Shown in pieces: positions 20,190-48,843 of a DNA stretch of 60,010 nt. Positions within the stretch are counted from its first letter, which is position 1. Each line of letters begins with the position of its first letter. Under the pieces are notes generated by a model. That model made no database searches and had not been told where the DNA came from. It saw only the letters and a list, made by a program, of their open reading frames with translations. The position numbers and the translations under genes are program-made. Origin of the DNA: a virus; the IMG/VR virus record IMGVR_UViG_3300012000_000018, positions 1-60,010 of that record, one strand, 5' to 3'.

Positions 20190-20612
20190 ATGGGTCAGTA
20201 TCACGTTTTAGTAAATTACGACAAGAAGGAAGTTGTAGTGCCACACGCACTCGGCTTGGGTCTTAAGCAATGGGAACACATTGGAGATTTCAATGGAAGT
20301 CTTTCGGATGCTCTCTATGTTCTAACAATGACATCGCCTAATCGCGGTGGGGGCGACTTGCCTCTTACTGCGGTGTCAGGGCGCTGGGCTGGCGACAGAT
20401 GTTTTGTCTATGGCGACTACACAGAGGACTCGGACTTGCCGAACATTCCAAACGCTGGCTCGCTCAACACAGAGGGCGAGGGCTGGACAGACATTAGCGA
20501 ACAGGTCGCGGATGCTCTCGGGCGTGTCTTTGATTTCAAAATGGTAGGCGATGGCTGGAAACAGAGAACGCCACATACTTACGAACCTGAAGTGCCATCG
20601 GAGTTATTGTAA
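20190..20612 (+). CDS. Conserved phage/actinobacterial protein (GQYHVLVN family), 140 aa
   Basis: Begins MGQYHVLVNYDKKEVVVPHA, continues LGLGLKQWEHIGDF, NRGGGDLP and GRWAGDRCFVYGDYTED. I recognise this as a conserved family of actinobacterial genomes and plasmids with no assigned function. The RGGGD and GRWAGDR blocks are its signature. Confidence 0.75.
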   Translation: MGQYHVLVNYDKKEVVVPHALGLGLKQWEHIGDFNGSLSDALYVLTMTSPNRGGGDLPLTAVSGRWAGDRCFVYGDYTEDSDLPNIPNAGSLNTEGEGWTDISEQVADALGRVFDFKMVGDGWKQRTPHTYEPEVPSELL

Positions 20613-24581: not shown

Positions 24582-26366
24582 ATGGCTCACATAAAGTTTG
24601 ACGATACACGAACAGCGCATACGCCTGTTGAGTGGTTATCAGTAGGACGCGACATAGGAACACTTGCTAACAAGTGGTCTAATCGCGGAGATTTAGTTGC
24701 TTATGTTGGAACAGGCGCAGGTGGTATTGCTCCTGCTTGCTACAACCCAACACTTGCGGAAGTTGAAGTAAATGTTGAAATCGCATTTGGAAAAGGAATT
24801 ACACCTGAACAAATTGGCGACCTAACTAATCGTTCAACTCACTATGAGTATCCAAAGGCGATAGGTGCTATTCAGCACGAAGCCTTCCACGCTCGCTTCT
24901 CACAATGGTCTATGCCAAAGGCTTATAGCGAACTAAAGCCTGACGAATACCAAGCACTTGTATTGCTAGAGGAAAGTCGCATTGAGTATCGCGGTCTAAC
25001 TGCTATGCCAAGTGCTAGACCTTTCCTTCGTGCTTGCGCTATGGAAATTGTTATTGGAGATGTAAAAGAGGGTGCGGAAAAAACAAGCACCACTCAATCA
25101 CTTACTAATCTTGTCGGTCTTGTTCATAGTCGCATTGACGCAGGTATTCTTGACGCAGATGAAGTTTCTACAATTACAGAAATGATTGAGAAGGAACTTG
25201 GTCTTGAAGTTGTTGAGAAGTTGCGCTCGCTTGCTCGTCAAGCACAACTCCACGAAAACGATACTGACCTTACAGACATTTATCCTATTGCGATTGAGTG
25301 GGCGAAAATTGTTCGTGAGTTAGCAAAAGAGCGTGGAGATGAAGGAACTCCCGAAGGCGGTTGCGGTTTTCCTATTCCTATGGAAATGCTAGAGGAAATC
25401 CTTGACGCTCTAAATGAGAGTGCTTCAACAGTAGAAGTGAATAACTTTGGCGAACTATCTGACGCAGAGCAAGCAGATGATTGGAAGCAAGAAGCACAAG
25501 CAAAGGCTAAGGAAAGTCAGGAACGCTTAGAGAATAAAGAAATCTCTACAGAAGTTTTTACGAAGTCGTCAGGTCCGGGTAAGAGCAGAACAGATAGCAA
25601 GTTGATTGAAACTCGCAACCCAACAGGTGCGGAGCGTTCTGCGTCAGTTCTTATTGGTCGCTGGTTAGAAAAGGCTAAGTATCGTGAGCGCGACATTGTT
25701 GAAAGGTCTAGTGAAGTTCCACCCGGACGCTTACGCACTCGCGCAATCGTTCAGCGTGAAGCACTACGCTCTCGCGGTATTCATACAAAGGTAGAACCTT
25801 TCCGAAAGAAAGTTCGTAAGCACACAGACGACCCAACTCTCAAAGTTGGAATAATGGTAGATATTTCAGGTTCAATGGGAAGTGCTATGAACCCAATGGC
25901 TACAACTGCGTGGGTAATGTCGTCAGCAGTAAATCGTATTCAAGGTGAGTGCGCTATGGTTTATTTCGGTAATGATGTGTTCCCTGTTCTAAAGTCAGGT
26001 CAGAAGTTAGACCAAGTAAATGTTTATTCAGCAGAGGACGGAACTGAAAAGTTTGAGCGAGCATACAAAGCACTAGAAGGTTCTCTCAACTTACTCAATG
26101 GAAGCGGAGCAAAGTTGCTCGTAATCGTTTCTGATGGTCTTTATTCAGGCAACGAACCTGCCAATGTTCGCAGGGCTATGGCTCAATGTGAGAAGGCTGG
26201 CGTTGCGGTTGTGTGGCTACCATTTAGCCACTCGCACAGAGCCAACGATTTGGGCGGTGGATACGCTAAAGTTGTTGAGGTTGCTAATCCTGCGGAAGCA
26301 AGTGAAGTAATCGGCAAGGCGTGTGCGGAAGCACTAACTAAAGTTGGACAGAGGGCGGTTGCCTAA
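24582..26366 (+). CDS. HExxH metallopeptidase-like protein with C-terminal VWA domain
   Basis: 594 residues. The N-terminal third contains AIQHEAFHARFS (H99-E100-x2-H103) and a later LEESRIEYR whose Glu could be the third zinc ligand. A charged linker (about 270-400) leads to a VWA domain with the MIDAS motif DISGSMGS (D427 on) and LLVIVSDGLYSG. This resembles CobT/CoxE-like and metallopeptidase-VWA proteins that partner MoxR ATPases. The combination in a phage suggests ATP-driven remodelling or cleavage of a host complex; the target is unknown. Confidence 0.82.
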   Translation: MAHIKFDDTRTAHTPVEWLSVGRDIGTLANKWSNRGDLVAYVGTGAGGIAPACYNPTLAEVEVNVEIAFGKGITPEQIGDLTNRSTHYEYPKAIGAIQHEAFHARFSQWSMPKAYSELKPDEYQALVLLEESRIEYRGLTAMPSARPFLRACAMEIVIGDVKEGAEKTSTTQSLTNLVGLVHSRIDAGILDADEVSTITEMIEKELGLEVVEKLRSLARQAQLHENDTDLTDIYPIAIEWAKIVRELAKERGDEGTPEGGCGFPIPMEMLEEILDALNESASTVEVNNFGELSDAEQADDWKQEAQAKAKESQERLENKEISTEVFTKSSGPGKSRTDSKLIETRNPTGAERSASVLIGRWLEKAKYRERDIVERSSEVPPGRLRTRAIVQREALRSRGIHTKVEPFRKKVRKHTDDPTLKVGIMVDISGSMGSAMNPMATTAWVMSSAVNRIQGECAMVYFGNDVFPVLKSGQKLDQVNVYSAEDGTEKFERAYKALEGSLNLLNGSGAKLLVIVSDGLYSGNEPANVRRAMAQCEKAGVAVVWLPFSHSHRANDLGGGYAKVVEVANPAEASEVIGKACAEALTKVGQRAVA

Positions 26367-27557: not shown

Positions 27558-27584
27558 TAGCCAACCAATTAGAAAGGGAAACAA

Positions 27585-27824
27585 ATGGAAACAGAGTTCG
27601 GAAAGGTAGTTGCGGAAACAACTTACATAGTTGAAACGCCTATCTGCGGTATGTGTGGCAAGGGTGGAACAGTTGAAGTTCCTATGAAAGGTTTTCTTAT
27701 TCGCCAATTAGGCGGTGCTATTCAAGACGCTTACCCTGAAATGGATAAGGCGTTGCGTGAGCAAATGATTACAGGCACGCACCCAAGTTGTTGGGAAGTT
27801 ATGACGGGCGGGTGGCAAGAGTGA
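27585..27824 (+). CDS. Conserved small phage protein with C-x2-C, 79 aa
   Basis: TPICGMCGKGGTVEVPMKGF is followed by GGAIQDAYPEMDKALREQMI and GTHPSCWEVM. The IQDA-PEM then REQ-I-GTHP-CW pattern is shared by many actinophage proteins without known function. Confidence 0.75.
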   Translation: METEFGKVVAETTYIVETPICGMCGKGGTVEVPMKGFLIRQLGGAIQDAYPEMDKALREQMITGTHPSCWEVMTGGWQE

Positions 27825-27961
27825 TTGTCTGTCGTAAATGTGGCTGGGAAGTAAAGCAAGATTTTGGTTTGTGGATAGATACATACAACGGCTCGGTTTG
27901 TGATTGGCGTGGAGATGTTCCACTACCGCACGAACCTAACCGACAACTAGCGAACGCCTAA
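27821..27961 (+). CDS. Micro zinc-ribbon protein, 46 aa (GTG start)
   Basis: (M)IVCRKCGWEVKQDFGLWID then VCDWRGDVPLPHEPN. GTGA overlap with the previous gene supports the start. C-x2-C plus a later Cys and His. Confidence 0.6.
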   Translation: MIVCRKCGWEVKQDFGLWIDTYNGSVCDWRGDVPLPHEPNRQLANA

Positions 27962-27986
27962 CCGAGAAAGGTAAAAAGTAAAAACT

Positions 27987-28232
27987 ATGCAAGTGAAAAA
28001 ACTAATAGAACAACTATCGGCATACTCACCTGAAACCGAGTTGCTTGTTGCATACTGGGATAAAGAGTGTGTTGAAGGATACTCATACGGCTTGACCTTG
28101 ACGGACGAACAATGGGGGCAAGTCTGCGACAAGTATGAAGACGGCGAGTGGTATTTCCAAAGTTCTGCTGCCGAAGACTTCGTTGATTTAGCAAAAGGCG
28201 TGGTTAGCGAAACGGAGAGTGCAGATGACTAA
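27987..28232 (+). CDS. Small acidic protein, 81 aa (paralog group D)
   Basis: MQVKKLIEQLSAYSPETELL, VAYWDKECVEG, LTLTDEQWGQVCDKYE: third member of the family seen at 19458 and 19928. An A-box (27971-27986) directly abuts the ATG. Confidence 0.72.
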   Translation: MQVKKLIEQLSAYSPETELLVAYWDKECVEGYSYGLTLTDEQWGQVCDKYEDGEWYFQSSAAEDFVDLAKGVVSETESADD

Positions 28233-31804: not shown

Positions 31805-32024
31805 GTGCGGTTTGCGGAAGTAAAAAGTAAAAACTTCCGTGTAAAATAGAACCACCTAGTGCGAGGCGTTCCCCTTTCTGCCTTGCCTAGATGAGAGCAG
31901 ACATACCCTTCTCTGCTCCGCCGACTTCCCCTTCCCCTGTCTTGTGGGAAGTCGGTGTGTATCTATTCTTGACTTTCTAAATTATTTTGTTATACTTGCT
32001 CTCACAAACAACTAAGGGGGACAA
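31805..32024. other. Gene-free linker with hairpins, A-box and promoter
   Basis: The A-box at 31820 lies inside an inverted repeat (GGAAGT...ACTTCC). Further on, CCGACTTCCC and GGGAAGTCGG form a perfect 10-bp stem (31921-31955), followed by TTGACT (31969)-N16-TATACT (31991). Confidence 0.65.
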
Positions 32025-32273
32025 ATGGCAGTAAGCACTTACCAAGAAATTGCTAGACACTTCGGACACGAAATAAAAGTTGATGTTTGGGGCAACGAAG
32101 ACAACGCCTCTATCACTTGTGAAACTTGTTCTGAAATCTTGATTGACTTCGATAACAACAGCGAGATAGGCACTTGCGACGACTGCGAAACAACTTATGA
32201 TGTTGGCTCACAGATAGACCATTGCGCTGATTGCGGAACTTGCTGGGAGCATTGTAAGCGACACGCCGAGTAA
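32025..32273 (+). CDS. Cysteine-rich double zinc-ribbon protein, 82 aa
   Basis: ITCETCSEILIDFD, TCDDCETTYDVG and HCADCGTCWEHCKRHAE supply eight or more Cys plus His for two metal sites. Possibly a nucleic-acid-binding or host-RNA-polymerase-binding factor; unknown. Confidence 0.72.
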   Translation: MAVSTYQEIARHFGHEIKVDVWGNEDNASITCETCSEILIDFDNNSEIGTCDDCETTYDVGSQIDHCADCGTCWEHCKRHAE

Positions 32274-32897: not shown

Positions 32898-33473
32898 ATG
32901 ACGACTATTGCTGGCGTGCAAGGAGAGAACTGGGCTGTCGTCGGCTTTGACTCACGAGTAACCGAAGAAAACGAAAAGATTTATTCACTTCCAAAAGATA
33001 ACGGCAAGATGTTCAAAAATGGAAACTATCTTATTGGCGTGGCTGGAGATGTTAGAGCGATAAACCTCTTGTCCCACATATTCAAACCGCCCATTATCAA
33101 CCCATCAACCTATGGTGCAAGGTTAGATAAGTTTATGACCGCTTCCTTTATCCCCGAGATGAAGAAGTTGTTTGAGGAAAACTCATACTCTAAAGATGGC
33201 GACAACGATAGTAATGTGATGGTCGTAATCAACGGGACTATTTACGAAATAGGAAACGATTACTCTTGGGCTAGAGATGAGAGTGGGATTTACGCTATTG
33301 GTTCGGGTTCGGCTTATGCACTTGGTTCTTTACTTGGAACTATGGAAACCCGTAAAAGAACTTTATCTACGGCTAAGACTTTGGTTAGGCAAGCAATTAC
33401 TATCGCCACCAAACTTGACCCAAACTCTGCCCCACCGATTTACATAAATGTTCAGTATTACGGAGAGAAGTAA
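32898..33473 (+). CDS. Proteasome-like Ntn hydrolase
   Basis: 191 residues. After removal of Met, Thr1 starts TTIAGVQGENWAVVGFDSRV, placing Asp17 and Arg19 as in proteasome beta subunits and HslV. GKMFKNGNYLIGVAGDVRAI supplies the Lys region, and GIYAIGSGSAYALGSLLG the Ser-Gly-Gly-like loop. Such phage proteins form self-activated peptidases; roles proposed include head maturation or interference with the host proteas(om)e. It stands alone, not in the head module. Its stop is part of an A-box. Confidence 0.85.
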   Translation: MTTIAGVQGENWAVVGFDSRVTEENEKIYSLPKDNGKMFKNGNYLIGVAGDVRAINLLSHIFKPPIINPSTYGARLDKFMTASFIPEMKKLFEENSYSKDGDNDSNVMVVINGTIYEIGNDYSWARDESGIYAIGSGSAYALGSLLGTMETRKRTLSTAKTLVRQAITIATKLDPNSAPPIYINVQYYGEK

Positions 33474-33550
33474 AAAGTAAAAACCTGCGCTCGCCGGCGT
33501 TCGCTGCGGGGGCAACTTCCAAATAACTTTGGCGTGTCTGCCTAGAAGAC
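33474..33550. other. Linker module: A-box, GC tokens, B-box, GGCGTGTC
   Basis: Ordered elements: A-box (33470-33484), GCGCTCGC (33487-33494), B-box AACTTCCAAATAACTT (33514-33529), GGCGTGTC (33531-33538), then the promoter at 33551. The clearest example of the composite linker. Confidence 0.75.
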
Positions 33551-33578
33551 TTGACTTTTCTTGTCGTTCCGTTATACT
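33551..33578 (+). promoter_or_regulatory. Promoter TTGACT-N16-TATACT
   Basis: Transcription should start about 33585, exactly at the structured RNA that follows. Confidence 0.8.
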
Positions 33579-33585
33579 TAGGGTA

Positions 33586-33664
33586 TTCGGTAGGGGGAAA
33601 GTCGCTGGACACCTGAACGCCTATAACTTGCAAGGGGCGGAAACAATACGACTCCCCTACCGAA
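33586..33664 (+). ncRNA. Structured 79-nt leader RNA
   Basis: TTCGGTAGGGG (33586-33596) pairs perfectly with CCCCTACCGAA (33654-33664). A GAA bulge then continues into AGTCG/CGACT (33600-33604 / 33649-33653). Inside, CGCC can pair with GGCG. The RNA begins at the expected +1 and ends 25 nt before the next start codon. Candidate riboswitch, ribozyme-like element or stable small RNA. Confidence 0.6.
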
Positions 33665-33688
33665 CCTAATAAAGAAAAGGGAGAAAAT

Positions 33689-33862: not shown

Positions 33863-33902
33863 TTGACTTTTGCTAGGGCAGGTATTATGCTTGCCCTAGC
33901 AA
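33863..33902 (+). promoter_or_regulatory. Promoter wrapped in an 11-bp inverted repeat
   Basis: TTGACT (33863)-N17-TATGCT (33886). TTGCTAGGGCA (33870-33880) and TGCCCTAGCAA (33892-33902) flank the -10 as perfect arms with an 11-nt centre. Confidence 0.75.
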
Positions 33903-34951: not shown

Positions 34952-34960
34952 CCTTAGAGA

Positions 34961-34990
34961 GAAGCCCCACCGAAAGGTGGGGTTTTTCTT
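34961..34990 (+). terminator. Intrinsic terminator
   Basis: GAAGCCCCACC-GAAA-GGTGGGG followed by TTTTTCTTTT. Confidence 0.9.
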
Positions 34991-35003: not shown

Positions 35004-35126
35004 GTAAAAAGTAAAAACTTATACGCGGACTTACCCCTAGCCTTGTCCAACTTCCAAACAACTTGCGGACGCCTATTGGCTAAAACCCTTAGCAAAATAA
35101 ATGTTAAGTTTTTCGGGAACTTTTTA
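35004..35126. other. Linker module with A-box and B-box
   Basis: A-box at 35004-35018 and B-box AACTTCCAAACAACTT at 35049-35064, directly after a terminator and before a CRP-like site and promoter. No gene. Confidence 0.7.
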
Positions 35127-35142
35127 TGTGATGTATCTCACA
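35127..35142. promoter_or_regulatory. CRP/GlxR-like site TGTGATGTATCTCACA
   Basis: Perfect match to TGTGANNTANNTCACA, 20 bp upstream of the -35 at 35162. Confidence 0.7.
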
Positions 35143-35161
35143 CCTGCGGTTTATTAAATAC

Positions 35162-35190
35162 TTGACTTACAAATAGAAAATAGTTATACT
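35162..35190 (+). promoter_or_regulatory. Promoter TTGACT-N17-TATACT (leaderless start)
   Basis: The -10 ends 6 nt before the ATG at 35197, so transcription starts at or next to the start codon. Confidence 0.85.
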
Positions 35191-36050: not shown

Positions 36051-36064
36051 TCTTCCCCCCGAAG

Positions 36065-36100
36065 GAGAGGGTGCGGTTCCCCCCGCACTCTCTCTTTTTT
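36065..36100 (+). terminator. Intrinsic terminator
   Basis: GAGAGGGTGCGG pairs with CCGCACTCTCTC followed by TTTTTTT. An A-box follows at 36111 and a B-box-like GACTTCATAATAACTT at 36156. Confidence 0.85.
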
Positions 36101-36183
36101 TGCGGTAACAGTAAAAAGTAAAAACTTTCTTCAGCAACAGCAACCAAGTGCATTCGACTTCATAATAACTTTCGTGTCTGCCC

Positions 36184-36212
36184 TTGACTTATCTATAGTC
36201 AACTATTATACT
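36184..36212 (+). promoter_or_regulatory. Promoter whose -35 is one arm of a palindrome
   Basis: TTGACT-N17-TATACT; TTGACT-TATCTAT-AGTCAA makes the -35 half of an inverted repeat. Confidence 0.75.
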
Positions 36213-36391: not shown

Positions 36392-36420
36392 GAAGCCCTC
36401 GCAATTATGCGGGGGCTTTT
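36392..36420 (+). terminator. Intrinsic terminator
   Basis: AAGCCCTCGC and GCGGGGGCTT followed by TTTG. A-box at 36437 and B-box at 36482 follow. Confidence 0.8.
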
Positions 36421-36504
36421 GCATCTCCGTATTAAAGTAAAAAGTAAAAACTTTTGTTCAGTCCGGACTGGTCCGGCGCGACACTTCCAAATAACTTTCT
36501 CGAC

Positions 36505-36539
36505 TTGACTTGACTTTCTTCGTGATAGGTTGTTATACT
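36505..36539 (+). promoter_or_regulatory. Promoter with doubled -35 (TTGACTTGACT) and TATACT
   Basis: Two overlapping TTGACT boxes at 36505 and 36510; TATACT at 36534 gives an 18-bp spacer from the second. Confidence 0.65.
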
Positions 36540-39662: not shown

Positions 39663-40141
39663 TGACTAAGCCAACTTGGGATAAGTTTGAAGAAGCAACT
39701 CCAGTTGTAAATGGGAAAAAGGTAGAACTTGAACCTAACCAAACAATTTGGAAGAACAGGTTTTATGTTGTCGTCAAGACAGTTTTAGAACCTGAACTTG
39801 GAGAAGCCAGTGGTCTTCACCTTTCAATTCGCCATAACGAACGAAAGGCTATTAGAGATTGGAGACACTTCCAGCGTATCAAGAACGAACTTGCGGGTGC
39901 TGAAAGAGAAGCCGTAGAAATCTTCCCACCTGAAAGCCAACTTGTTGATACTTCTAACCAGTATCACCTTTGGGTCTTACCTGAAGGCACAACTTCTTTC
40001 TTTACTTGGAACGAAGGAAGGCACGTTACAAGCAACGCACAAGACCCACAGACTGCTCAATGGTTGAGGGATAAAGGTTTAGACCCTGCGGTTATTCGCA
40101 ACGCGGTGCAACGACCTTTAGAGGAGGAAGCGTCTGCGTGA
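39662..40141 (+). CDS. DUF7694 domain protein, 159 aa
   Basis: The block DWRHFQRIKNELAGAEREAV, EIFPPESQLVDTSNQYHLWV matches DUF7694, a widespread phage family of unknown function. N-terminal half reads as a small beta domain. TAATG coupling to the upstream membrane gene. Confidence 0.82.
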   Translation: MTKPTWDKFEEATPVVNGKKVELEPNQTIWKNRFYVVVKTVLEPELGEASGLHLSIRHNERKAIRDWRHFQRIKNELAGAEREAVEIFPPESQLVDTSNQYHLWVLPEGTTSFFTWNEGRHVTSNAQDPQTAQWLRDKGLDPAVIRNAVQRPLEEEASA

Positions 40142-40344
40142 GAGTAGCAAAAAGTAAAAAGTTAGAAGCCAGCGCGAGTGCGTTGTATCGTGGTGGTCTT
40201 TCGATAGATGATGTGGCTAGAGAACTTGCCGTGTCCTATCGTTGCGCTCGCAAAGCAATTCAAGGTGGTGGGGCTGAAATTAGAAACCCCTCTGCTAGAA
40301 CTAAAGGACGCACAAGTCCTAAAGGAAAGAAGGGAAACAAATGA
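40138..40344 (+). CDS. Helix-turn-helix protein, 68 aa (GTG start)
   Basis: ALYRGGLSIDDVARELAVSY RCARKAI is a resolvase-type HTH; the tail is basic (ARTKGRTSPKGKKGNK). GTGA overlap with DUF7694. The A-box variant at 40147 encodes AKSKK at residues 4-8. Confidence 0.72.
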   Translation: MRVAKSKKLEASASALYRGGLSIDDVARELAVSYRCARKAIQGGGAEIRNPSARTKGRTSPKGKKGNK

Positions 40345-40864: not shown

Positions 40865-40866
40865 GA

Positions 40867-40896
40867 GAAGCCCCGCCTTGTGCGGGGTTTCTTTTT
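40867..40896 (+). terminator. Intrinsic terminator
   Basis: GAAGCCCCGC-CTTGT-GCGGGGTTTC followed by TTTTTG. A reversed A-box (40907) and B-box (40948) follow. Confidence 0.9.
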
Positions 40897-40967
40897 GCGC
40901 TGTGGAGTTTTTACTTTTTATGCGTGAGTCCAAGCCTCGCTGTGGGCAACTTCTAAACAACTTATGC

Positions 40968-40996
40968 TTGACTTACTGCTTGACGACTGATATGTT
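40968..40996 (+). promoter_or_regulatory. Promoter TTGACT-N17-TATGTT
   Basis: Serves the micro-gene at 41026. Confidence 0.75.
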
Positions 40997-41157: not shown

Positions 41158-41173
41158 ATAACTTTGCCACGAA

Positions 41174-41203
41174 GAAGCCCCGCCTTGTGCGGGGTTTCTT
41201 TTT
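41174..41203 (+). terminator. Intrinsic terminator
   Basis: Near copy of the terminator at 40867: GAAGCCCCGC-CTTGT-GCGGGGTTTC then TTTTTTG. Confidence 0.9.
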
Positions 41204-41306
41204 TGTGCGGGTAAGTTTTTACTTTTTATGCCTCTCCCCAAACCCTCGCGCTCGCCAGGTTCCACAACTTCCAAACAACTTCTCTCTGATTCCTCTCTAA
41301 CTGCCC

Positions 41307-41335
41307 TTGACTTCTACAATGGAGTGTTGTATGCT
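41307..41335 (+). promoter_or_regulatory. Promoter TTGACT-N17-TATGCT
   Basis: Preceded by reversed A-box (41215) and B-box (41266-41281); serves 41359. Confidence 0.8.
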
Positions 41336-41784: not shown

Positions 41785-41822
41785 GGAAGGTCGTTCCCGC
41801 CCCTGTGCGGGGGCGACTTTCC
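41785..41822 (+). terminator. Hairpin after the DUF6011-like gene
   Basis: GGAAGGTCG and CGACTTTCC with inner CCGCCCC/GGGGGCG-type pairing. Weak T tract. Confidence 0.5.
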
Positions 41823-41837
41823 TGACTTTAGTGTGCT

Positions 41838-41937
41838 AAGGTGGTCTAGTAGAAATGATGCAAGACGCATTAGAAAGTAGGTCGCAACACCTATCTCCCC
41901 AGAGCGGGTGATACGGGTGGGCTAGTCCAGCCACCTT
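41838..41937 (+). ncRNA. Possible structured leader of the lysis cassette
   Basis: AAGGTGG (41838) can pair with CCACCTT (41931), but GGTGGGC (41916) can pair with GCCACC (41930) instead, so the two folds exclude each other. TAGGT/ACCTA (41878/41889) is a further hairpin. Mutually exclusive pairing is how leaders switch. No known riboswitch class was matched. Confidence 0.35.
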
Positions 41938-41965
41938 GTCCTGTCCCCTAACAAAGGAATAATCA

Positions 41966-43563: not shown

Positions 43564-43679
43564 TCTTTGTCCTTTTTCATTTCGATATAGTGGCAAGGCT
43601 TACATAGCCCCTCTCCACCCCCGCCGAACTTAGGATTGAACCAAGTCTGACATTTGACACATTGTTGCGGTTTAGCCAT
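43560..43679 (-). CDS. Micro zinc-ribbon protein, 39 aa
   Basis: MAKPQQCVKCQTWFNPKFGG then EGLCKPCHYIEMKKD: two C-x2-C pairs around a Gly-rich loop. Overlaps the HTH gene by 8 bp. Confidence 0.66.
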   Translation of the reverse strand: MAKPQQCVKCQTWFNPKFGGGGEGLCKPCHYIEMKKDKE

Positions 43680-44283
43680 TTCGGTTCTTCTCTAGGATTG
43701 GTTGGAAGCACTTACTTTTTCCTGTTGTTGTTCGGTAGCCGTATCGTGTCAAGCGGAATTGGATTGCACCAATAGTTACACCCAATATCTTTGCAAGACG
43801 ATATACGGAAATGCCTTGCGTTGTTATTGCTTGATTGAGAAGGTAGGTGTATTCATCTGCCTCTGCTCGATACATCTTGCCGTGTCCTCTTACCTGTTGG
43901 GCAAGTGGTTTGAGTTCTAATAGTCTGTCCAGCATTTCTTTTGGAAGTTCGGGATAAACTTTAGAATACTTTGTTTCTCGCGGTGGCTTTGGAATAGGTA
44001 AATCACCAATGAGAGAAGTGTCGCTCATTGTTTGTTGAGCAAGTTGTCTTACTCTTTCCCGTGAAATATCTACTGCCCTTGCAATCGCGGAATCTGTCCA
44101 GCCAGCCTCGCCCAATGCAATTATGTATTGGTTGCGTTGCTTTATATCGCTAATACCTTTGAAGATATCCAATACATCTTGCGGAAGTTCTTGCTTTCGC
44201 TTGATGATTTTTCCTTCTCCACTCGCCACAATTTTGTATGTAACGCGTTTAGGTTTAGTCGTTGTCGTTATCTCTTTCGTCAT
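43672..44283 (-). CDS. Double helix-turn-helix DNA-binding protein, sigma-region-4-like (paralog 2)
   Basis: 203 residues. RNQYIIALGEAGWTDSAIAR AVDISRERVRQLAQQ forms the N-terminal HTH with the sigma-region-4-like RERVRQ. The C-terminal half, with LLELKPLAQQVRGHGKMYRA and YRLAKILGVTIGAIQFRLTR, repeats that of the protein at 2141. A basic first 30 residues (KRVTYK, KRKQ) is extra. Likely a phage transcription factor; the paralog pair sits at two ends of the early region. Confidence 0.78.
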   Translation of the reverse strand: MTKEITTTTKPKRVTYKIVASGEGKIIKRKQELPQDVLDIFKGISDIKQRNQYIIALGEAGWTDSAIARAVDISRERVRQLAQQTMSDTSLIGDLPIPKPPRETKYSKVYPELPKEMLDRLLELKPLAQQVRGHGKMYRAEADEYTYLLNQAITTQGISVYRLAKILGVTIGAIQFRLTRYGYRTTTGKSKCFQPILEKNRNG

Positions 44284-45203: not shown

Positions 45204-45260
45204 TTTTTTGGCGCTCGCAAGTTTTTACTTTTTATATAGTTTTAATTTTTCCAGCAAAAA

Positions 45261-45786: not shown

Positions 45787-45901
45787 TGTGATTTACACCA
45801 CACATTTGCACCCCTGCGGAAGTTGTTGAGAAGTGAAAGTTATCCACAGGTTTATCCACAGGCTGTGGATAACTTTTGCCCTGCGGGTTTTTACTTTTTA
45901 C
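45787..45901. other. Candidate replication origin: DnaA boxes with CRP-like site, B-box and A-box
   Basis: Three perfect DnaA boxes lie in 33 bp: TTATCCACA at 45840-45848 and 45852-45860, and the inverted TGTGGATAA at 45864-45872. They are flanked by a CRP-like site TGTGATTTACACCACA (45787-45802), a B-box (45820-45835) and a reversed A-box (45887-45901). Confidence 0.6.
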
Positions 45902-46586: not shown

Positions 46587-47206
46587 TTGTTTCCCCTTTT
46601 TTCTTTTCTATTGAAGCCCTTTGCTTCAATAAGATAAAGGTATCTAATAGCACTAGGTAATGCAAGTCCATACACATATTTTCCCTATGAGTTACATCAC
46701 ACATATAAGACCTATGTTACTCGCCAGTATCTAAATTATTTCTAGACCACTCTTGTCTTGCTTTAGATATATCACTAGCAATCTTGGTCATCTTGACTTT
46801 GTAAAGTTATTTAGTTCTTCACAAGAATAACAAGCCTGTTAGTCATCAAGCCTGTGCCTAAGCCTAACATTGAGCCTTAGTATGTAAGAAAGTTGAGTCG
46901 CTTTGACTCAAGTTTGTTGATACACATTGCTTATACTAAAAGATAACTTTTTGTTATATAAATAAAATAAATCTATATGCCTTTGCTTTTTTGTAACAAA
47001 AAGTTATAAAACAACTTTTTTAATAACAAAATGTTATTTATCCGGAAACGATTTGGAAAAGCCCGCAAAATAAGCGGTACCTTCTCACAGGCCAAAAGCA
47101 TTTAATGGAAAGGTTCATACTTTCGATGCTTTCGTCCAAGAGTCTTTGCCCGCATAGTCTGATAACATTAGGCACAAGAAGTTTTCCCATATTTAAGGGA
47201 GTTTGA
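46587..47206. other. Gene-free switch region between leftward early and rightward head genes
   Basis: It holds a CRP-like site TATGAGTTACATCACA (46686-46701), a hairpin TTGAGTC-GCTTT-GACTCAA (46893-46911), a TATACT (46932), and a very AT-rich stretch (46938-47040) with inverted copies TAACTTTTTGTTA (46944-46956) and TAACAAAAAGTTA (46994-47006) and a palindrome AATAACA-AAA-TGTTATT (47022-47038). AAGGGAG before 47207 is the ribosome site of the head operon. Confidence 0.65.
46637..46665 (-). promoter_or_regulatory. Minus-strand promoter TTGCAT-N17-TACCTT
   Basis: Serves 46586. Between it and the start lies a perfect hairpin ATTGAAGC-CCTTT-GCTTCAAT (46610-46630). Confidence 0.7.
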
Positions 47207-48304
47207 GTGAAGTTCGAGGGTTTCTTTCCACCGCACCCGTTGCAACCAACCCAGTATGGGATTTTGAGTGTTGCCCGTTTGTCGGAACTTGTTGAGAAAG
47301 AAACTGCTACAGACACAGAGGAACGCTGGGTTCGCGGCTACTCCCACATCTTTGAGACTAACCCAACTATTCGCCTTCTCCGTGGAAGTGGTGCAGTCGC
47401 ACATGAGATTAACGATGCAACAGGGGACCCACGCTATATTGATGTAAAGCCGTTTTTTATCGAGGTTGAGGATTACGCCACCACAATGAGCATGGGCGGG
47501 GAAGACCGTAAGGCAAAGATTGTCCGCCAACTTGAGGCAGGAACTCAAAAGTCAGTTGAGCATGAGTTCTATCACGGCTATTCAACTCGCTCCGACAATA
47601 GTGGTAATCAGTATCTAACTAAAGCAGAGACTATTACTATTGTTAATAATTCAACTTTGTATCAAATGCAAGAAGGTCTTGGTTTTCTTGAGTATGCCAT
47701 CGCCCAATCACCGCTTGGTGAGCAGGGCGTAATCCATATGACTCGTGATATGGCAGCCCTTTTAGGCAGCCAGTGGATTCTAGAACGCCCGGATGAAAAA
47801 GGCGTTCCACATCTTGAGACAACTAACGGCACTCCCGTTTGTGTTGGTTCTGGTTATGACGGCTCTGGTCCAAAGGCATCTATTGCAACAACTACTGTTT
47901 CAGGTGCAGGTCTTTGCACAATTACAACAGAAACACCTCATGGTTTGGCTCAAAATGATTTAGTAGTTATTGAGCAGGAAGTTGCTAGATTTAATGGGAC
48001 TTGGACAGTTACAAGCACTCCAACTCCAACAACATTTACTTTTACTATTACTGGCGCTTCTCAGGTAGAAACTGCTGGACAGGGTATTGCATTCTTCGGC
48101 CCAGACCAAGACCACAAGTGGATGTATGCGACAGGTCTTGTAGATGTTAACTTAGGCGCTATTGAAGTTGTTAATACTGAGCGTGGTCACGGATATAATG
48201 TTTCAGGAAATCAAAACGATATTAGACTCAAAGCAATTCGCCCAGCGGCAGTTCATCACGAACCTTCTGTCCATTGCGGAGTAAAGGTTCAAGTCCACCA
48301 GTAG
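47207..48304 (+). CDS. Probable capsid-type structural protein with inserted FCCH-like beta domain
   Basis: 365 residues from GTG at 47207 (AAGGGAG upstream). It starts (M)KFEGFFPPHPLQPTQYGI and has a capsid-like alpha/beta body (KETATDTEERWVRGY; FIEVEDYATTMSMGG). Residues about 230-300 form a beta insert with THGL-type turn (TPHGLAQNDLVVIEQ; TPTTFTFTITGA) like FCCH domains in phage virion proteins. First gene of the head module, before the portal. Major capsid, pentamer or decoration protein cannot be told apart here. Confidence 0.6.
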   Translation: MKFEGFFPPHPLQPTQYGILSVARLSELVEKETATDTEERWVRGYSHIFETNPTIRLLRGSGAVAHEINDATGDPRYIDVKPFFIEVEDYATTMSMGGEDRKAKIVRQLEAGTQKSVEHEFYHGYSTRSDNSGNQYLTKAETITIVNNSTLYQMQEGLGFLEYAIAQSPLGEQGVIHMTRDMAALLGSQWILERPDEKGVPHLETTNGTPVCVGSGYDGSGPKASIATTTVSGAGLCTITTETPHGLAQNDLVVIEQEVARFNGTWTVTSTPTPTTFTFTITGASQVETAGQGIAFFGPDQDHKWMYATGLVDVNLGAIEVVNTERGHGYNVSGNQNDIRLKAIRPAAVHHEPSVHCGVKVQVHQ

Positions 48305-48342: not shown

Positions 48343-48843
48343 ATGAAACAGAAGATAAAACTCCCCGATGACGAGGTTAGGTTTATCTCTGCTCTTGAAC
48401 CCGCTCTAGTTCCTTCCCGTCTTCGAGCGTTATGGGAAGCAGGTTGGTCTTTAGGAATTATTGCTTCTTCAATAAAACCATCTAAGCCAAAATCAACCGT
48501 GCATTTTTGGGTAAAGAATGCTCCCTCTATAGAACAGCGTCGCCAAGTACCAATGCCACCACCAAAGTCTTTGACGGTCTCTGCTCCTATTTTAGGAACT
48601 CCTAGAACCCGCTCCATCTCTCCTACGGTGCCTCCAGAATTAAAGCCACGCTTACAGGAACTTTCAGCGCTGGCAAAGCGCTACCGTGCCAAGACTTCTG
48701 ATGATAGCCCGCTAGCCCAAGCGAACAGGGAACTAACAGAACTATCGCTTACACTCTATCACAGAGGCGTACCTGCTGCTGATATTGCAAAAGCGGCTGG
48801 AGTTACCTATCGTGCAATGGCTCGGCGGTTGAGCAATGGCTAG
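48343..48843 (+). CDS. HTH-type protein, distant relative of the double-HTH paralogs
   Basis: 166 residues from MKQKIKLPDDEVRFISALEP. SRLRALWEAGWSLGIIASSI (N-terminal HTH), a Pro-rich linker, LSALAKRYRAKTSDDSP and ADIAKAAGVTYRAMARRLSN (C-terminal HTH) follow the same order as at 2141 and 43672, though the RERVRQ signature is missing. TACAAT lies 5 nt before the ATG, so it is probably leaderless and under its own control inside the head operon. Confidence 0.72.
   Translation: MKQKIKLPDDEVRFISALEPALVPSRLRALWEAGWSLGIIASSIKPSKPKSTVHFWVKNAPSIEQRRQVPMPPPKSLTVSAPILGTPRTRSISPTVPPELKPRLQELSALAKRYRAKTSDDSPLAQANRELTELSLTLYHRGVPAADIAKAAGVTYRAMARRLSNG

Follow-up and report, generated by a model that had tools for sequence, protein, structure and literature searches.

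Repeated A-box-bearing linkers between accessory genes of a putative freshwater actinophage, and gene loss or exchange at some of them

The DNA analysed here (the window) was a 60,010-base stretch of the IMG/VR contig IMGVR_UViG_3300012000_000018. Its portal protein shared 74% identity with the portal of Actinomycetia phage DSL-LC01 (129 kb) and 58–62% with those of Microbacterium phages. A search of phage records for near DNA matches to the window gave none that was useful; three close relatives (G001, G002 and G003, DNA identity mostly 84–93%) and several distant ones (~65–75% identity) were fetched, the relatives being metagenome contigs. Since the close relative G002 was 127,375 bases long, the window probably represents roughly half a genome.

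Six composite linkers were read directly in the window (Table 1). At all six an A-box, a B-box and a sigma-70-like promoter (TTGACT-16/18-TATACT type) followed one another in this order. A terminator hairpin lay ahead of five of them and was absent at linker 1, where the upstream 70 nt had a folding energy of -5 kcal/mol versus values between -25 and -34 for the remaining linkers, and where the A-box overlapped the stop codon of an HslV-like gene (32898–33473). The A-box was reversed in two linkers (40908 and 41216). Among the six, an exact copy of GGCGTGTC was present only at 33531; linker 36111–36212 carried TTCGTGTC in its place, and the other four had no GGCGTGTC. The B-box gave 15 matches versus 1.2 expected. 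Compared part by part, the A-box, the -35 box and the Shine-Dalgarno sequence were conserved, the B-box was slightly so, and the spacer between A and B (0.81–0.88) fell below the intergenic average of 0.90. An earlier note had described a fixed order at these places, with GGCGTGTC and a "GC token" (the A–B spacer) among its parts. The series of A-box, B-box and promoter stood at every linker and the terminator at five, with the A-box turned round at two; a fixed order including GGCGTGTC and the GC token was rejected, GGCGTGTC being exact in one linker and the spacer unconserved. In the window as a whole GGCGTGTC/GACACGCC occurred 13 times versus 0.9 expected, and was also present in relatives lacking the A-box. 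CRP/GlxR-like palindromes (TGTGA-N6-TCACA or near matches), read by eye, adjoined linkers or promoters at 35127–35142, about 37211, 45188, 45787, 46271 and 46692.

Table 1. Positions of linker parts and related features in the window
Feature	Position	Strand	Remark
Promoter outside the six linkers	31966–31996	+	joined to 32279 promoter in G003
A-box, linker 1	33470–33483	+	overlaps stop codon of HslV-like gene
B-box, linker 1	33514–33529	+	
GGCGTGTC, linker 1	33531–33538	+	sole exact copy in six linkers
Promoter, linker 1, sigma-70-like TTGACT-16-TATACT	33551–33578	+	left border of exchanged cassette
Conserved structured leader RNA	33583–33671	+	within exchanged cassette
Next promoter, TTGACT-17-TATGCT	33863–33891	+	right border of exchanged cassette
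Terminator hairpin, linker 2	34960–34990	+	
A-box, linker 2	35004–35017	+	
B-box, linker 2	35049–35064	+	
Promoter, linker 2	35162–35190	+	26-nt repeat junction 35145–35170 in G001/G003
Terminator hairpin, linker 3	36064–36102	+	
A-box, linker 3	36111–36124	+	joined to A-box at 36437 in G001
Degenerate B-box, linker 3	36156–36171	+	3 mismatches
Promoter, linker 3	36184–36212	+	
Terminator hairpin, linker 4	36392–36422	+	
A-box, linker 4	36437–36450	+	
B-box, linker 4	36482–36497	+	
Promoter, linker 4	36510–36539	+	
Terminator hairpin, linker 5	40866–40896	+	31 nt identical to linker 6 terminator
A-box, linker 5	40908–40921	-	reversed
B-box, linker 5	40948–40963	+	
Promoter, linker 5	40968–40996	+	
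Terminator hairpin, linker 6	41173–41203	+	
A-box, linker 6	41216–41229	-	reversed
B-box, linker 6	41266–41281	+	
Promoter, linker 6	41307–41335	+	
Two-HTH protein, candidate A-box-binding regulator	43672–44283	-	two predicted HTH regions
A-box outside the six linkers	45222–45235	-	joined with its terminator to 45888 A-box in G001
A-box adjoining DnaA-box-like repeats	45888–45901	-	

The A-box matched AGTAAAAAGTAAAAACTT (up to three mismatches) at 27 places in the window versus 0.2 expected by shuffling, and its 12-base core was present in 28 copies, all within 16.4–46 kb. Because just six of these cores sat in the six linkers, the A-box is not a feature of composite linkers alone; the others lay between a Shine-Dalgarno sequence and ATG, at starts or stops, in coding sequences or alone. 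The core AAAAAGTAAAAA was the commonest or near-commonest repeated 12-mer across most of the A-bearing relatives listed, the larger A-bearing records holding 15–30 copies each. The consensus drawn from 65 clusters of unlike flanks (non-redundant contexts) was AGYAAAAAGTAAAAA, an asymmetric, strictly conserved 15-bp site. Alignment to three relatives showed an intact core at 28/28, 23/24 and 15/15 sites, compared with about half of flanking 12-mers and 31–49% of AT-rich controls. Purifying selection acts on the A-box, the -35 box and the Shine-Dalgarno sequence, and not on the A–B spacer. A-boxes were not found in DSL-LC01 and three other relatives. The accessory region of DSL-LC01 instead contained a promoter-like CTAAAGATGTTATA unit 16 times, and other A-lacking contigs repeated GTGCAGGAAG, often immediately after TTGACA.

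Linker 1 was directly followed by an 89-nt structured leader RNA. In 14 distinct relatives 99.3% of its pairs were standard and eight pairs had changed on both sides, and no shuffle was equally good on the pairing and covariation measures. Its covariance model also recovered two records outside the training set (L141 and L063); each of the 14 searched sources had one copy per record. Rfam gave no match to it, even at E = 5, and it was not found in DSL-LC01 and Pumpernickel. Its central 6-mer was always palindromic (TTGCAA, CCTAGG, GCTAGC, TCCGGA or TCTAGA), a possible sign of a self-pairing (dimer) loop. A second candidate structured region (41820–41960) was considered and dropped (z = -0.42).

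The leader RNA and a 78-aa gene made up a cassette common to G002, G003 and the distant relative G004, beginning just past one promoter and ending at the next. At this locus a different gene was present in the window and none in G001. Third-position identity of the 78-aa gene between G002 and G004 was 86% versus a median of 53.5%, the sole outlier of 63 orthologs. On these data the cassette was exchanged between the G002/G003 lineage and G004, with the promoters as its borders.

Among the relatives, single cassettes had been lost or exchanged at some repeated borders. When genomes were compared in pairs, four events of gene loss or gain showed repeat overlaps of 17–80 nt at an A-box, an A-box plus terminator or a promoter, although a deletion in a single contig at a 17–20-nt repeat may be an assembly collapse, as the relatives are metagenome contigs. 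These were an A-box-to-A-box junction (36110/36436) with a segment lost in G001, an A-box plus terminator junction (45222/45888) in G001, a promoter-to-promoter junction (31969/32279) in G003, where gene 32025–32273 was missing, and a promoter duplicate at 35145–35170 (26-nt repeat) in G001 and G003. The 28–47 kb region held 14 close exact direct repeats of at least 13 nt, of which nine were A-boxes and the longest was a linker terminator; those of at least 15 nt were A-boxes and one terminator pair, so that the linkers are a natural substrate for short-homology joining.

Other breakpoints lay elsewhere. Twenty-five of 91 intergenic breakpoints had an A-box or promoter no more than 12 nt away, versus 14.8 expected, an enrichment of ~1.7-fold among non-independent breakpoints. 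Of the alignment breaks as a whole, roughly half fell inside genes. Clean events also included a join at start codons (34042/34134), a join at 47151/48305 and some intergenic joins without repeats, and exchange tracts between G002 and a further relative, G007, ended within genes regardless of linkers. The earlier note had proposed that the linkers, as interchangeable borders, would let homologous recombination shuffle genes with expression undisturbed, and that breakpoints unrelated to linkers in related genomes would refute it. The four repeat-joined junctions and the one promoter-bounded exchange agree with this proposal for some events; as a general rule it is not supported, a substantial share of breakpoints being unrelated to linkers. 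The recent G002–G007 tracts were at G002 25559–26017, 27579–28100 and 40066–40306 (window-oriented; loci L107 and L108), with ~80–100% identity in 40-nt windows versus a background near 70%. A 365-aa gene (47207–48304, +) with a weak phrog_9998 match only was present in the window and G001 and cleanly absent (0–1 nt left) from G002 and G003.

Taking these results together, we consider it fairly probable that the linkers delimit transcription units of one or a few genes, in the accessory (early) region of a freshwater phage of actinobacteria with a genome of roughly 127 kb, shuffling being a by-product of repeated regulatory borders. An intrinsic-terminator-like hairpin (five of six linkers) would close the upstream unit, and a sigma-70-like promoter with a Shine-Dalgarno sequence would open the next. 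Between hairpin and promoter stands the A-box, in many cases accompanied by a looser B site 25–50 bp off, and by analogy with mycobacteriophage stoperators the A-box may be recognised as DNA by a regulator, from phage or host, through which transcription is controlled or blocked. Short-homology recombination between the repeated border elements would occasionally remove or swap a whole cassette with its regulation kept, as suggested by the A-boxes and shared terminator being most of the close direct repeats of the region; border shuffling would not be the sole route, because many junctions fall elsewhere.

Alternatively, the linkers could be purely transcriptional and the repeats play no part in recombination, junctions being found at linkers solely because selection spares recombinants whose breaks lie between genes. 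The overall weak enrichment over other intergenic DNA, the start-codon junctions and the repeat-free clean intergenic joins fit this explanation, but the longest junction overlaps (17, 20, 26 and 80 nt) each fell at an A-box, a promoter or a terminator, as homology-driven joining predicts, and we find it rather doubtful.

The positions and orientation of the A-boxes bear on what the site itself might do. It could be mainly a DNA-structure, replication or partition site (a nucleoprotein site or multi-copy centromere) placed in linkers where room was available. A-boxes were found also inside coding sequences and reversed, DnaA-box-like repeats flanked one of them, and the B site lay 25–50 bp away from A, to its left or right and in both orientations, at a frequency above that expected from its density, all of which would suit such a role. 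Against it, A-box orientation tracked transcription (intergenic, 170 same and 29 opposite; coding sequences, 37 of 37 same; redundant counts) and flipped within the leftward gene block at 43.6–46.6 kb, and the sites kept to a single 30-kb stretch of genes, the remainder of G002 having none, making this role improbable. Strict helical phasing of A and B, hinted at by redundant counts, was not upheld in the 65 non-redundant contexts, which showed just the broad 25–50 bp preference. The DnaA-box-like TTATCCACAG repeats, direct and inverted, clustered at about 45838–45880 and 37187 beside A-boxes, and this cluster is a possible origin or site of host-DnaA titration.

That the A-box acts as RNA, e.g. 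as an mRNA processing site or a translation enhancer between genes, would accord with the seven of 28 copies that have a start codon no more than 30 nt downstream and with most copies pointing with transcription; we hold it to be hardly probable in view of conserved copies reversed relative to neighbouring genes (40908, 41216, 43028 and 37139). Insertion of small mobile MITE- or REP-like elements between genes would give linkers that are multi-copy, similar and intergenic, as these are, but is very improbable, as A-boxes held homologous positions across distant clades (e.g. upstream of the HslV-like gene) and unrelated sites had nothing in common but the A-box itself.

The reading of the linkers as transcription-unit borders prone to recombination was compared with known systems. 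In T4-type phages, elements of promoter and stem-loop (PeSLs) were reported as mediators of modular shuffling among related phages (Arbiol 2010 and Comeau 2014, as cited in PMC4503421 and PMC3950731). The linkers resemble PeSLs as a repeated composite of promoter and stem-loop terminator between small accessory genes, both parts being present in five of six linkers. Gene exchange or loss at the elements may be a further likeness, to judge from the four repeat-joined junctions and one promoter-bounded exchange, but enrichment overall was only ~1.7-fold. The linkers differ in having a strictly conserved 15-bp A-box and a looser B-box between terminator and promoter, in an actinobacterial host, in an unrelated promoter and phage family, and in that border shuffling is only part of gene turnover. 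The portal matched actinobacteriophages (DSL-LC01 and Microbacterium phages), which sets this phage apart from T4-like myoviruses.

Stoperators of Cluster A mycobacteriophages are short asymmetric sites, 20–30 per genome, mostly intergenic and mostly aligned with transcription (PMC6550527, PMC9283540). AGYAAAAAGTAAAAA is likewise short, asymmetric, mostly intergenic and predominantly transcription-aligned, with a comparable copy number (15–30 cores in the larger A-bearing records) and a consensus that shifts between clades, but the sites lay in one region, 29 intergenic ones were reversed (redundant count) and no homologue of the Cluster A repressor was detected. In Cluster K mycobacteriophages, SAS are found directly ahead of gene starts, and ESAS consist of inverted repeats of 17 bp (PMC3203893). 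A-boxes resemble them as an asymmetric repeated site tied to small genes, in some cases with an extended second motif; unlike SAS, most do not abut starts (7/28 within 30 nt), and B is not an inverted-repeat pair. Haloviruses HF2 and HGTV-1 have repeated intergenic promoter modules in the early region or left arm, and a PeSL-like shuffling role was suggested for the HGTV-1 repeats (PMC8707807, PMC3950731); those repeats, unlike the linkers, have archaeal TATA promoters and no A-box. We claim membership of neither the PeSLs nor the stoperators: this is not a T4-like phage, and the searches yielded no homologue of the Cluster A repressor. The proposed borders would show that composite terminator–promoter borders for swapping small genes also evolved beyond the T4 group, in uncultured actinophages of freshwater that are common in public collections. 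As a highly conserved candidate regulator site, the A-box could expose accessory-gene control in these phages, and with many related contigs the influence of regulatory borders on gene turnover is directly countable.

A candidate for the protein reading the A-box was the two-HTH protein of Table 1. It was present in most A-bearing contigs and in no A-lacking contig tested, and was missing from one A-bearing clade; because the contigs are related, this co-distribution is a lead only. Its profile had no sequence match in PDB, the Cluster A repressor 7R6R included, and a fold search of PDB gave none at E <= 0.001, with 7R6R not among the matches listed; its identity with the Cluster A repressor was therefore rejected. 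A search for its family in bacterial genomes found nothing. The second half of the genome was covered in G002 alone, by homology search. A 140-aa protein (20190–20612) was present in 7/7 A-bearing and 0/4 A-lacking genomes; a domain search found none in it, and it was not proposed as the A-box regulator. More tentatively, the A-boxes may belong to a stoperator-like system unrelated to the mycobacteriophage one, with a family-wide 15-bp site, an unrelated two-HTH or host reader and recombination-prone borders; insulation, regulation and gene shuffling would then be functions of one repeated DNA. Another protein, with weak similarity to the two-HTH one, was encoded at 48343–48843 (+), adjoining the portal region, and was present in nearly all relatives.
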